Source of the DNA: a virus
IMG/VR virus record: IMGVR_UViG_3300025426_000091
Coordinates: 1-30,161 of that record
Strand: one strand, 5' to 3'
Length of the DNA stretch: 30,161 bases
Shown here: piece by piece, positions 5,473 through 29,414 of the stretch
How the letters are laid out: the number at the start of each line of letters is the position of its first letter
Position numbering within the stretch: position 1 is the stretch's first letter
Program-made: the position numbers and the translations under genes
The notes under the pieces: model-generated
Databases searched by the model: none
What the model saw: only the letters and a program-made list of their open reading frames with translations
What the model was told of the DNA's origin: nothing

Positions 5473-6336
5473 TTAGATTCTTCGCATACATGTCGTTCTT
5501 GCCATTGCTTGCCAGTTTGAAGGAAAGCTCTTACGCAGGTCTGCCAACTTCAAGACCATACGCAGGCTCAACTCACGCAACTTGTCCTTGTTGGCTTCGA
5601 TGAACTCAACCAAATCGTGTTTGACAATTTCAACATTGTCAAAGTCATAACGGTCCAACATACCATCAGTGATGATTTGTTTGATACGCAGGATCTTCTC
5701 ACGAGTGGTATCCATTTGAAGGTCAATGTAGTGGCAACGTGATTCCAGTGCATCCAAGTGGTCACGCAACTTTTTACTGCGAACGTGTTCAAACTTGATG
5801 TTAGTAATGAAGATAGCCGCACCTTTGAACTCAAAACGATCCGGGATGCCTTCGCTACGCAAAATACGGCTGTCAGTATTCCAGCTGATAAAGCGGCGTG
5901 AGCTAGAGTCCAAAGCGCCTTTCAAAATGTTAAGGCTAAGGTCTTCCATCAAAATGCTGTCGCAGTCATCAAACACAACAACATTGCCTGGAGCACTGAA
6001 CTCAAACAACTTGGCATATAAGCCAATCGCTGACATAGCACCTTTGACCACTTCAAACTTGGGTTTCTTTTCTGCCAAGGTGTTAAACAAGTCTGCTTTT
6101 TGCAGAACATTCTCAACACCGTATGATTTACCAACACCTGGAGGGCCACTGACAATCATAGCACGGACATTGCCGTCTTTAACTGCCTTGGTCATGTCGT
6201 CCAGAATTTGGAAACGCTCACGGAGACGATCCATAATCTGTTCATCTGTTTCTTGTGCCACTTCACGTTCACGAGCCTTGATAGCGTCTGTATCAAACTC
6301 AAGAATGTTACCAGTTGCCTTTGCTGCCTTTGCCAT
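5473..6336 (-). CDS. AAA family ATPase
   Basis: 287-residue AAA+ protein: Walker A GPPGVGKSY at about residues 60-68, Walker B VVVFDDCDS, sensor-1-like FITN and an arginine-rich segment around ESRCHYID. Start is MAKAAKATGN at 6336, behind TAGGAG; a longer in-frame version lacks a ribosome site. Phage AAA proteins of this size act as remodelling or loader ATPases; the partner is unknown. Heads an operon with the membrane and Cys-cluster proteins below it. Confidence 0.85.
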   Translation of the reverse strand: MAKAAKATGNILEFDTDAIKAREREVAQETDEQIMDRLRERFQILDDMTKAVKDGNVRAMIVSGPPGVGKSYGVENVLQKADLFNTLAEKKPKFEVVKGAMSAIGLYAKLFEFSAPGNVVVFDDCDSILMEDLSLNILKGALDSSSRRFISWNTDSRILRSEGIPDRFEFKGAAIFITNIKFEHVRSKKLRDHLDALESRCHYIDLQMDTTREKILRIKQIITDGMLDRYDFDNVEIVKHDLVEFIEANKDKLRELSLRMVLKLADLRKSFPSNWQAMARTTCMRRI

Positions 6337-10667: not shown

Positions 10668-11438
10668 ATGAAACTTTCAAATTTTAATTTCAAAATCCGT
10701 TCTCTCCAAATAGCCAACCATATTGCAGCGGTAACAGGCATTGTTTGGCTGTCCTTGGGATACATTGATATTAGTTATCTCTGGATAGGCCTTGTATTTT
10801 ATATTTGGTTTGCATTATTTGGTACTGTGATAGGACTACATCGTTATTTTAGTCATAGAAGTTTTAAAACTAATAAGACTTGGCATTATCTATTAGGAGT
10901 AACTGGCACATTGGCCACTGTTGGTAGTATCATTGGTTTTGCTGGACTACATCGATATCACCATGCCAATACCGATACTGATCTAGATCCACATGATCCT
11001 AGACGTATAGGTTGGTTCAATGCATGGATCTATAACTGGAAACCTAGTCACTTTACTAAAAACTATATTCGTCCGGAACTAAAAGATCCTATGATTGTAT
11101 TTCTGCATAAACATTATTTTAAAGTTATCTTGGCCTATGTGGTATTCTTGGCTTTAATCAACCCTTGGTTAGTTGTTTGGTGTTATTGTATACCTGCTTG
11201 CGGTAGTTATATGGGACTTAGTGCTGTTACTGTGATAGGACATTTACACGGGTATAAAACGCATGACATTGGCGATGAATCGAGAAATAGTTGGATCTGT
11301 GCATTGTTGAGTGTAGGTGAAGGTTGGCATAATAACCATCATGCAAATAGCAGTAGTCACAGGACTGGAGAACAATGGTGGGAGTTAGATCCTGCTGCTT
11401 GGTTGATTGAAAACATTATACGAACAAACAATGCCTAA
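10668..11438 (+). CDS. fatty acid (acyl-CoA type) desaturase
   Basis: Integral membrane di-iron desaturase of 256 residues that introduces a double bond into acyl chains. The three histidine boxes are complete: HRYFSH (58-63), HRYHH (95-99) and HNNHH (221-225), between hydrophobic helices at roughly 18-53, 73-92 and 145-185. It is compact compared with the 300 or more residues common in bacterial acyl-CoA delta-9 desaturases. A TAATAT/TATAAT-type -10 lies in the 70-base divergent gap. Its end overlaps the radical SAM gene, implying joint action on membrane lipids. Confidence 0.9.
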   Translation: MKLSNFNFKIRSLQIANHIAAVTGIVWLSLGYIDISYLWIGLVFYIWFALFGTVIGLHRYFSHRSFKTNKTWHYLLGVTGTLATVGSIIGFAGLHRYHHANTDTDLDPHDPRRIGWFNAWIYNWKPSHFTKNYIRPELKDPMIVFLHKHYFKVILAYVVFLALINPWLVVWCYCIPACGSYMGLSAVTVIGHLHGYKTHDIGDESRNSWICALLSVGEGWHNNHHANSSSHRTGEQWWELDPAAWLIENIIRTNNA

Positions 11439-13946: not shown

Positions 13947-15025
13947 GTAATGTTATACCAGGATCTAGCTTCGGCAAGTGCTTGATACCCTAGTTCTTCC
14001 AATGTATATGTTTTTCCAATATTATTTTTAGAAGACCAGTTATTATAAGTATCTAAACAGTCTTTAAAGTTTTTTACAATAAGAGCCTTTTCTGCAAGTG
14101 TTTGGAGTTTAATGGGAATACCAAATAACAAATTTCTATCTTCGTGCAGTTGTTTAGTAAGTACTTCTAGTTTTTTATAGGCAGTTAAATGAGTATTTAA
14201 AAATCGTGTATCTACTACAGAAAGTTCTGAGTTCATTTTAACATTGTTAGATTCATCAGTTAACAGTTTGATATCGACATTATGTTTTAATTTAGAAAAT
14301 CCTGATTTATCGCTAGACAAATAGTGACACTTGTTCCAATCGTTCCAACTAATATTGTATAATTCTTTCCAAGATTTGCGTTGTGTATCTGGAGGAAATA
14401 TATCTAAGTTATTTACATAACCTTCTAAGTCTTTAAGATGTGTTTCATAACTAAAAATAGAGTTAACACCAAAATGGTCGTCAACCCATTCGAGGTATTT
14501 GACATACTTATCAAGATAGTTTTCGAACACTATTTGATCAATAGTTATTTTGTTCTTGTGTAAATGATCAGTTAACATCATTTTATGTTCTGCTTCAAAC
14601 AGATTTAGATGTTTGGTAAAGTTAACAATGCACCAACTCAATGCATGTTCAAACAAATTTTCTCGCCTTGCACTGATAATAAAAAAGTTATTGTTTATAT
14701 ACTTGTAAAGACTTAACTGATCTGGTAAAGAATCTTTTCTGTTGTTGATATGATACTGGGCCAACCGACTGACACTATACTGATCTACGCTAGATAATAA
14801 GGCGACTACTTCTTTTAAACTTTGATGATATCCCCATTCTTGCCAATGTGGTTTGCCTATCATGTCCTGATTATATTTGGTTGAGTGATATTTTTCAAGA
14901 CCGTTGGTTAACTCATGTAGATTAACAACTGGTTTGCCATAATCATAGTTTTGCATTGTCACCGATAGGTATTTTTGCAACAAGGTAGATCCTACCCTAT
15001 CTGGAGTTAATACTATAACGTTCAT
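13943..15025 (-). CDS. sulfotransferase-like protein
   Basis: 360 residues. The N-terminal strand-loop TPDRVGSTLLQKY is the 5'-phosphosulfate (PAPS) binding loop of sulfotransferases, and ISARRENLFEHALSW resembles the 3'-phosphate-binding strand with Arg and Ser-type residues. Family: sulfo-group transfer to carbohydrate or other hydroxyls. Overlaps the genes on both sides by ATGA. The acceptor is unknown. Confidence 0.75.
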   Translation of the reverse strand: MNVIVLTPDRVGSTLLQKYLSVTMQNYDYGKPVVNLHELTNGLEKYHSTKYNQDMIGKPHWQEWGYHQSLKEVVALLSSVDQYSVSRLAQYHINNRKDSLPDQLSLYKYINNNFFIISARRENLFEHALSWCIVNFTKHLNLFEAEHKMMLTDHLHKNKITIDQIVFENYLDKYVKYLEWVDDHFGVNSIFSYETHLKDLEGYVNNLDIFPPDTQRKSWKELYNISWNDWNKCHYLSSDKSGFSKLKHNVDIKLLTDESNNVKMNSELSVVDTRFLNTHLTAYKKLEVLTKQLHEDRNLLFGIPIKLQTLAEKALIVKNFKDCLDTYNNWSSKNNIGKTYTLEELGYQALAEARSWYNIT

Positions 15026-15934: not shown

Positions 15935-16008
15935 TGGAGCGGGATACCAGAATCGAACTGGTCACTAAACCTTGGCAAGATTTCGTTTTACCAATAAACT
16001 AATCCCGC
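15935..16008 (-). tRNA. tRNA-Gly(GCC)
   Basis: Acceptor GCGGGAT/ATCCCGC, D loop ATTGGTA, anticodon loop TTGCCAA, T loop TTCGATT, U73 as expected for Gly, encoded CCA. Confidence 0.95.
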
Positions 16009-19047: not shown

Positions 19048-19070
19048 ACCTATCTTAAAAAAATACACCG

Positions 19071-19144
19071 AGCAGGCAACAGGATTCGAACCTGCGACGA
19101 ACAGCTTGGAAGGCTGACACTCTACCGGGCTGAGTTATACCTGC
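19071..19144 (-). tRNA. tRNA-Gly(UCC), no encoded CCA
   Basis: Acceptor GCAGGTA/TGCCTGC, anticodon loop CTTCCAA, T loop TTCGAAT, U73. Unlike its neighbours the 3' end reads CGG instead of CCA. The bases outside the acceptor stem on both sides pair perfectly (ACACCGA/TCGGTGT), making a stem of about 15 pairs followed by seven T. Confidence 0.9.
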
Positions 19145-19149
19145 TCGGT

Positions 19150-19181
19150 GTATTCTTACATTACCACTATACGAATCCCGC
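19150..19181 (-). pseudogene. 5' half of a tRNA-Gly (remnant)
   Basis: GCGGGAT followed by GTATAGTGGTAATG, matching the start and D arm of a Gly tRNA; the acceptor strand is the same as that of tRNA-Gly(GCC) at 15935-16008. No 3' half follows; an intact tRNA-Gly(UCC) starts six bases on. Confidence 0.5.
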
Positions 19182-21390: not shown

Positions 21391-21464
21391 TGGTGCTCCC
21401 AAGAGGTAACGCTCCTCTGTTTCGGCATTACCAATGCCGTGTAATACTTTTATACTATGAGAGC
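21391..21464 (-). tRNA. tRNA-Thr(GGU), non-canonical D and T loops
   Basis: Acceptor GCTCTCA/TGGGAGC, perfect anticodon stem CGGCA/TGCCG with loop TTGGTAA, A73 and CCA. The D region has no GG pair and the T loop is AGCGTTA rather than TTCRANY, so the usual D-T loop contacts cannot form. Confidence 0.8.
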
Positions 21465-28491: not shown

Positions 28492-28567
28492 TGGGGTGAT
28501 TGATGGGACTCGAACCCACAACAACAGGAATCACAATCCTGGATTCTACCATTGAACTACAATCACC
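28492..28567 (-). tRNA. tRNA-His(GUG)
   Basis: Acceptor GTGATTG/CAATCAC with the extra encoded G-1 opposite C73, the His identity pair. Anticodon loop TTGTGAT, T loop TTCGAGT, CCA. Confidence 0.95.
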
Positions 28568-28628
28568 ATATAGAAACACACTCGGCCACGCTCTGAACCT
28601 GGACTCTTAGTAATGTGTTTTTATATGG
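28566..28628 (-). repeat. inter-tRNA hairpin spacer, copy b
   Basis: Arms CCATATAGAAACACA / TGTGTTTTTATATGG, 15 pairs with one G-U. The loop matches copy d almost fully over about 30 bases (CCACGCTCTGAACCTGGACT). Confidence 0.75.
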
Positions 28629-28747: not shown

Positions 28748-28832
28748 CCATATAGAAACACACTCGGGGATGTGCTGAAAGTACCCCTTGATGATCCTAA
28801 ATCGTTATGTTTTAGAATGTGTTTTTATATGG
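28748..28832 (-). repeat. inter-tRNA hairpin spacer, copy c
   Basis: Same 15-bp arms as copy b, loop of about 55 bases with an internal stem (GGGG/CCCC). Confidence 0.75.
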
Positions 28833-28961: not shown

Positions 28962-29024
28962 CCATATAGAAACACACTATGCCACGCTCTGAACCTGGAC
29001 TCTTAGTAATGTGTTTTTATATGG
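28962..29024 (-). repeat. inter-tRNA hairpin spacer, copy d
   Basis: Same arms as copy b and nearly the same loop; its 3' arm contains the CCA of tRNA-Met(CAU). Confidence 0.75.
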
Positions 29025-29182: not shown

Positions 29183-29258
29183 TGGTCTCCGTAGAGGGAT
29201 TTGAACCCCCACTACCTGCTCCCAAAGCAGGGGCGCTACCAGGTTACGCTATACGGAG
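29183..29258 (-). tRNA. tRNA-Pro(UGG), copy 2
   Basis: Acceptor CTCCGTA/TACGGAG, anticodon stem CCTGC/GCAGG with loop TTTGGGA, T loop TTCAAAT, A73, CCA. Its 5' part resembles the Pro remnant at 17647-17688. Confidence 0.94.
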
Positions 29259-29264
29259 AAAAAC

Positions 29265-29331
29265 TGGAGCGGTAATATTGATTCTCACAACACTCCCAAG
29301 GTGGACCCCCAGGCAGTTAATACCTTACCGC
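29265..29331 (-). tRNA. short D-arm-less tRNA-like gene, UCC anticodon (Gly?)
   Basis: 67 bases with CCA. Acceptor GCGGTAA/TTACCGC, T stem TGTTG/CAATA with loop TGAGAAT, anticodon-type stem CTGGG/CTTGG (several G-U) and loop GGTCCAC (UCC). Only 12 bases lie between acceptor and anticodon stem, too few for a D arm. U73 agrees with the other Gly tRNAs here. Confidence 0.5.
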
Positions 29332-29339
29332 ATAAAACT

Positions 29340-29414
29340 TGGTGCCCAATGTCTGGTTCGAACAGACGACCTATCGCTTACAAGGCGATTGCGCTACCAC
29401 TACGCTAATCGGGC
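29340..29414 (-). tRNA. tRNA-Thr(UGU), copy 2
   Basis: Acceptor GCCCGAT/ATTGGGC, anticodon stem ATCGC/GCGAT with loop CTTGTAA, T loop TTCGAAC, A73, CCA. Its first base is the last base of the HNH gene stop codon. Confidence 0.95.

Follow-up and report, generated by a model that had tools for sequence, protein, structure and literature searches.

A conserved D-armless, glycine-type tRNA-like RNA encoded in phage tRNA clusters

Background

Natural tRNAs lacking an arm have been stated to exist in mitochondria only (2024 study, PMC11551756), and in the sections of a review cited here arm-less tRNAs are mentioned for mitochondria only (PMC7609411). An engineered D-armless tRNA-His works in Escherichia coli, which makes loss of the D arm compatible with decoding (PMC11551756). 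In the literature that we found, outside whose scope most subscription journals lie, natural arm-less tRNAs are confined to mitochondria.

Bacterial Y RNAs mimic tRNAs, and several toxins target tRNA-Gly. Phage tRNAs are thought to counter host defences that target tRNA (PMC10264068, PMC11559606). With respect to glycine, the (alpha-beta)2 glycyl-tRNA synthetase (GlyRS) contacts the first four acceptor pairs, U73, C35 and C36 (PMC9908026), and the bacterial glycine identity set comprises G1-C72, C2-G71, U73, C35 and C36 (PMC9976931).

We report a 67-nt tRNA-like gene lacking a D arm in a phage tRNA cluster, together with its homologues in related phage contigs, and discuss how far its conserved features are consistent with a glycine tRNA mimic.

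Results

A 67-nt tRNA-like gene fills a gap in a phage tRNA cluster

The window, i.e. the whole 30,161-nt stretch of viral DNA that was analysed (IMG/VR record IMGVR_UViG_3300025426_000091), carries 28 ARAGORN-predicted tRNAs on its minus strand. Within this cluster, the 81-nt gap between tRNA-Thr(UGU) and tRNA-Pro(UGG) is filled by a 67-nt tRNA-like element on the same strand (exact sequence GCGGUAAGGUAUUAACUGCCUGGGGGUCCACCUUGGGAGUGUUGUGAGAAUCAAUAUUACCGCUCCA). The features of the locus, all on the minus strand, are:

29265-29331, minus: whole D-armless tRNA-Gly-like RNA gene, 67 nt, CCA encoded (sequence, homologues, covariation)
29325-29331, minus: acceptor stem 5' strand GCGGUAA, pairing with 29269-29275 (seven Watson-Crick pairs; compensatory changes in relatives at pairs 6 and 7)
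29318-29324, minus: unpaired linker GGUAUUA at the place of the D arm (alignment; invariant in six sequences)
29315-29317, minus: ACU, pairing with AGU at 29292-29294, base of the lengthened anticodon arm (consensus fold; invariant, without covariation support)
29314, minus: bulged G (consensus fold)
29307-29313, minus: anticodon-like hairpin 5' strand CCUGGGG, pairing with 29295-29301 (7/7 pairs vary yet stay paired, six with changes on both sides)
29302-29306, minus: pentaloop GUCCA (alignment; C35-C36 invariant)
29303-29305, minus: anticodon-like UCC, GCC in the L017/L042 type (alignment)
29295-29301, minus: anticodon-like hairpin 3' strand CCUUGGG (covariation analysis)
29276-29292, minus: T arm UGUUG-UGAGAAU-CAAUA (invariant except R57; T loop without U55-C56)
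29269-29275, minus: acceptor stem 3' strand UUACCGC (covariation analysis)
29265-29268, minus: U73 at 29268 and encoded CCA at 29265-29267 (invariant in six sequences)
29332-29336, minus: leader UUUAU, directly upstream (precedes all six homologues)
29340-29414, minus: neighbouring tRNA-Thr(UGU) (ARAGORN)
29183-29258, minus: neighbouring tRNA-Pro(UGG) (ARAGORN)
15935-16008, minus: normal tRNA-Gly(GCC) of the same genome (ARAGORN)
19070-19144, minus: normal tRNA-Gly(UCC) of the same genome (ARAGORN)

The original prediction, a 67-base tRNA without a D arm at this position, was exact as to the sequence, and a D arm is absent from all six distinct sequences described below. It also holds as to the consistent acceptor stem, U73, CCA and T stem (seven perfect Watson-Crick pairs with an abutting 5-bp T stem possible) and as to a T loop without the TTC motif (UGAGAAU, with no UUC). 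The T stem has 5 bp if U29292 pairs with A29276 and otherwise 4 bp (GUUG/CAAU). Twelve bases had been assigned to the place of the D arm; no normal D arm can be formed there, but the unpaired stretch is 7 nt (GGUAUUA), since ACU and AGU can form pairs that lengthen the anticodon arm at its base. As for the leader, UUAU precedes only 20 of 157 other tRNAs of the same loci.

The element was detected neither by ARAGORN, in its normal or mitochondrial mode, nor by Rfam searches up to E = 10. A structural scan of the window for a perfect 7-bp acceptor stem, N73-CCA and an abutting 5-bp T stem within 60-71 nt gave the element as the sole match, and the same scan of 100 shuffled windows gave none. 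Although its single-sequence folding energy is insignificant (z = -0.9), comparison between phages settles that the element is real. The shuffled windows and the homologues rule out a chance origin, and we regard the D-armless 67-nt element as confirmed.

Homologues adjoin tRNA genes in related phage contigs

Pattern scans revealed the element in eight further uncultivated phage contigs, each time adjoining tRNA genes. The first homologue (L012) was found with an acceptor pattern and a short interior, and further patterns led to L013, L038, L017, L042, L021, L029 and L031. Together with the window this gives nine contigs and six distinct 67-nt sequences, one of them identical in L042, L021, L029 and L031. 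Each of the eight related contigs scanned has a single copy, and the contigs show 20-31 tRNA matches, except L021, where little of the cluster is covered. The element lies directly downstream of tRNA-Gly(UCC) in L013, L017, L038, L042, L021, L029 and L031; its neighbours in the window and in L012 are tRNA-Thr and tRNA-Pro, one on either side.

A T4-type DNA polymerase is encoded in L017, L021 and L042 (the L017 copy is ~51% identical to cyanophage enzymes), and these contigs therefore probably represent T4-like uncultivated phages. A Cpn10-like gene downstream of the element is common to several contigs, from which no function can be inferred; a neighbouring gene of telling function, or a partner gene for the element, was sought and not found.

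Searches elsewhere gave no homologues. This applies to blastn against sequenced phages and plasmids with E up to 10 (a Vequintavirinae record gave a single 32-nt match, which is insignificant) and to a covariance model run on 12 tRNA-rich or related phage genomes; in genome contigs the pattern matches were those of chance. Weak covariance-model matches in L111 and L122 were likewise taken as chance, since tRNAs are absent nearby. An exact 20-base hairpin pattern, used in the first search, returned no match because that hairpin is the fastest-evolving part of the element.

Covariation supports the structure and conservation is high

Across the six aligned sequences a 21-pair structure has standard pairs in every cell (126/126), with compensatory changes in 8 of the 21 pairs. 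The covariation score is 0.457, compared with 0.211 in shuffles, none of which reached it, and ≤0.130 in slid controls. RNAalifold, unaided, gave the same structure. Acceptor variation is confined to pairs 6 and 7, and the central hairpin is almost wholly replaced with its pairing retained, from CCUGGGG-GUCCA-CCUUGGG to CACGAAA-UGCCC-UUUCGUG; 12 of its 19 positions differ between the window and the L017 type while C35-C36 are unchanged. The T stem and the ACU/AGU pairs are invariant and hence lack covariation support. The original prediction had named loss of stem complementarity in relatives as a refuting outcome; the stems are instead maintained through compensatory changes.

Constraint is greatest in the linker GGUAUUAACUG and in the T arm GUGUUGUGARAAUCAAUA, both of them essentially invariant. 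No change at all is seen in GGUAUUA and ACUG, in the T arm apart from R57, in acceptor pairs 1 to 5, in U73, in CCA or in the two loop Cs. Among 27 tRNA classes in the six genomes the element is the best conserved (mean pairwise identity 0.86 vs 0.66-0.83), and that it exceeds the 26 other classes speaks against decay.

Glycine identity elements are retained while the decoding loop and elbow are changed

All six sequences retain C35-C36 and a Gly-type acceptor (GCGG/CCGC, U73, CCA), and their anticodon is UCC or GCC. Among the other tRNAs of these phages, GCGG together with U73 occurs in tRNA-Gly only (11/11). All the GlyRS contact and identity positions given above are invariant in the six sequences, on which basis GlyRS likely binds and charges the element. 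No GlyRS gene (PF02091) was found in any of the phage records.

While the element has the canonical 7-bp acceptor stem, N73 and CCA, it departs from a canonical tRNA in other respects. The D arm (a 3-4 bp stem with a GG loop) is absent in 6/6 sequences. The UGUUG/CAAUA stem with a 7-nt loop is possible in all six, its columns being invariant and thus without covariation support, and the T loop is UGARAAU throughout, keeping U54, R57 and A58 with GA at 55-56 instead of U55-C56. The anticodon arm forms a hairpin of 7 bp whose loop has 5 nt, since positions 32 and 38 form a Watson-Crick pair in all six sequences, and each form breaks a decoding rule, the four UCC forms by G33 and the two GCC forms by C37. 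The predicted UCC anticodon hence stands insofar as UCC lies in the loop with C35-C36 invariant, but U33 is replaced by G and the loop has 5 nt. Normal tRNA-Gly(GCC) and tRNA-Gly(UCC) genes are present in each of the six genomes compared.

In overall form, with a linker replacing the D arm and the acceptor, anticodon and T arms remaining, the element resembles mitochondrial tRNAs. The mitochondrial trait noted originally thus applies to the D-armless form and the changed T loop; it is a likeness of form with no sign of kinship. Taken together, the tRNA reading is partly supported: what the comparison supports is that this tRNA-like RNA is real and conserved, is of Gly type, and has no D arm and a changed T loop.

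Y-RNA-like, hairpin and unusual tRNA elements

Several other RNA elements were observed in the window and the compared contigs. In L123 (11959-12078), L124 (reverse complement, 1212-1332) and L125 (reverse complement, 14504-14623) an outer stem AGGATACTT...AGTATCCT-GTTR surrounds apparently circularly permuted tRNAs, in the order anticodon arm, T arm, acceptor closed by a short loop, and D arm; the tRNA types are Arg-UCU, one with an ACA loop, and Phe-GAA. The L123 copy gives a weak match to Rfam YrlA (33 bits). Since these RNAs occur in only the three phages with a Ro-like gene, they perhaps constitute a phage Y RNA set. A similar outer stem with CAGCAA...CTGTTR occurs in L124 (reverse complement, 2640 and 6129), L125 (reverse complement, 8507, 8652, 9286, 9355 and 10500) and L123 (14144, 15901 and 16058), with acceptor-less tRNA-Lys(UUU)-like or tRNA-Arg(UCU)-like cores as cargo, or only a Thr-UGU-like anticodon arm (TTCAACTTGTAATTGAA). 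L017 encodes at 1440-2867 a phrog_850 'RNA-binding protein' with DUF2828 and DUF7788, with homologues in L038, L042, L029, L031 and L021 (475-480 aa; 80-86% identity among L017, L038 and L042); it is possibly Ro60-like, and gave no match to PDB sequences.

The tRNA cluster of the window also has three hairpin elements on the minus strand (28566-28628, 28748-28832 and 28962-29024) of the form TATAAAAACACATT...AGTGTGTTTCTATATGG with short cargo, and similar ones are present in L012, L013, L017 and L042. The tRNA-Thr(GGU) of the window (21391-21464, minus strand) has the T loop AGCGTTA and a D loop without GG, while its L012 and L013 orthologues have normal T loops. An apparent 5' fragment of a second tRNA-Gly (GCGGGATTCGTATAGTGGTAATG...; 19145-19181, minus strand), apparently a remnant, lies directly upstream of tRNA-Gly(UCC). 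In L013, an initiator-type tRNA-Met (6028-6102) with a C1-A72 mismatch and the T loop TGCGAAT has the element directly upstream. Finally, L125 has a long-variable-arm tRNA (10716-10800, minus strand) that was missed by ARAGORN and scores 46.5 bits with the Rfam tRNA-Sec model (cut-off 47); its loop, CTTGAAA, suggests tRNA-Ser(UGA).

Discussion

The gene, its structure and its conservation are demonstrated here. As to function, our best explanation, which we hold tentatively, is that the element is a conserved phage gene for a D-armless tRNA-Gly mimic which GlyRS recognises and whose main role lies outside ordinary decoding, perhaps in counter-defence. The element would be co-transcribed with the adjacent tRNAs and processed to a 67-nt RNA with a CCA end. 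Given the retained identity elements, host GlyRS would recognise G1-C72, C2-G71, G3-C70, G4-C69, U73 and C35-C36 and probably charge the RNA with glycine. It would be no ordinary elongator, since it has lost both the elbow (D arm, U55-C56) and the decoding loop (U33 with purine 37) although both normal tRNA-Gly genes are retained; the linker and T arm, which are invariant, may build another tertiary core or serve as a binding site. In the least certain step, the RNA would most likely be a stand-in glycyl-RNA, engaging during infection either GlyRS or those host factors that attack tRNA-Gly, in counter-defence or in control of the glycine tRNA pool.

A FaRel2 decoy is unsupported, acceptor pair 5 being U-A and not the required Pu5-Py68, as is an AtaT decoy, for the lower acceptor stem lacks the G-C pairs that AtaT prefers. 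The U73 and G71 set of TacT (PMC9976931) is present. No FemAB gene (PF02388) was found in the nine records, which are possibly fragments; this counts against use as a donor tRNA for FemAB-type transferases. With the FaRel2/AtaT, FemAB, GlyRS and Y-RNA leads unsupported, counter-defence is the weakest part of the proposal.

The non-standard anticodon hairpin and the presence of both normal tRNA-Gly genes favour a mimic, and ordinary decoding is less likely. The main rival, which we consider unlikely yet to be reckoned with, is nevertheless a D-armless tRNA-Gly that does decode, i.e. a backup isoacceptor whose altered loop, elbow and D region resist host tRNA nucleases or toxins while glycine codons are still read. 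Its loop always retains UCC or GCC, CCA and Gly identity are kept, and a variable stem around an invariant core is the pattern expected of a tRNA with another tertiary core. E. coli EF-Tu and ribosomes accept the engineered D-armless tRNA-His unadapted (PMC11551756), and its function in translation also weighs against a mimic; anticodon-loop mutations have been proposed to let phage tRNAs evade tRNA-targeting defences (PMC10264068). That both loop forms still read as glycine anticodons, that C35-C36 retention rests on two clearly different loop types only, and that no partner gene was found also count against a mimic. Against decoding stand G33 or C37 in every member, the Watson-Crick 32-38 pair with its resulting 5-nt loop, poorly suited to a U-turn, the two normal tRNA-Gly genes in each of the six genomes, and the low stability of the engineered D-armless tRNA (PMC11551756).

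Rather improbable is an uncharged structured RNA that borrows the tRNA processing signals (acceptor, T arm, CCA) and serves, for example, as regulator or ligand of a phage or host protein reading the invariant linker and T arm. Such a role would agree with the near-invariance of exactly these two parts and with the whole RNA being better conserved than normal tRNAs, and also with the UGARA T loop, which we take to be a form of the T-loop motif known from other RNAs, e.g. the TPP riboswitch. It leaves unexplained that the hairpin turned over while the GlyRS identity set, to which C35-C36 of its loop belong, was preserved. We find it highly improbable that the element is a Y-RNA-like partner of a phage Ro60-like protein. 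Although bacterial Y RNAs are tRNA mimics and in L017, L038 and L042 tRNA-Gly(UCC) and the element are immediately preceded by the phrog_850/DUF2828-DUF7788 gene, this Ro-like gene is absent from the element-bearing L013 (174.5-kb) and L012 (61.5-kb) contigs, possibly incomplete, and phages that have it carry separate YrlA-like RNAs with permuted tRNA modules, which together make this reading unlikely; the Rfam YrlA model gave no match to the window element up to E = 10. Scarcely credible, finally, is a decaying tRNA-Gly remnant with stems intact by chance. The normal tRNA-Gly would render the element redundant and a tRNA-Gly 5' fragment exists elsewhere in the window (19145-19181), but 67 nt are kept in six distinct sequences with compensatory changes and with conservation above that of the clusters' ordinary tRNAs; this covariation and conservation refute a pseudogene.

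Returning to the tRNA mimic, we consider the chances evenly balanced that the element is the first natural D-armless tRNA outside mitochondria, one that would be phage-encoded, charged by GlyRS, endowed with its own tertiary core and maintained beside normal tRNA-Gly, and that would either decode glycine codons in the face of tRNA-targeting defences or serve as a charged decoy. In form, the element is a natural, covariation-supported counter-example, in phages, to the mitochondria-only view. With it, the question whether bacterial GlyRS, EF-Tu and ribosomes encounter D-armless tRNAs in nature becomes testable, as does the question why phages with almost complete tRNA sets keep a tRNA mimic as well.

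Comparison with known systems

With bacterial tRNA-Gly (U73; substrate of (alpha-beta)2 GlyRS) the element shares the GCGG...CCGC acceptor, U73, the encoded CCA, C35-C36 and its place in a tRNA cluster, but it has no D arm, no U55-C56 and no U33 with purine 37, its 32-38 pair is Watson-Crick, its anticodon arm is lengthened and its length is 67 nt vs 73-76 nt. Mitochondrial D-armless tRNA-Ser(AGY/GCU) and the short mitochondrial tRNAs of nematodes and mites likewise have a short linker for the D arm and an altered T loop; the element differs in its phage setting, Gly identity, longer anticodon arm and in being highly conserved rather than eroding, and we claim no homology.

The engineered mini HisT, a 62-nt D-armless tRNA-His used by E. 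coli (PMC11551756), likewise consists of acceptor, T and anticodon arms. It is artificial, bases 11-25 of the normal tRNA having been deleted (PMC11551756), whereas the element is natural and conserved, with an altered anticodon arm and T loop. YrlA is also a small tRNA mimic, and YrlA-like RNAs are present in some of the same phages; in contrast to YrlA, the element has no outer Ro-binding stem, is unpermuted, has CCA and acceptor identity, and is present in L012 and L013, where the Ro-like gene is missing. Finally, the phage tRNAs that evade anticodon nucleases (PMC10264068) are, as the element, phage-encoded and changed in the anticodon loop, but these are ordinary genes with point changes in the loop, whereas in the element the whole fold differs.
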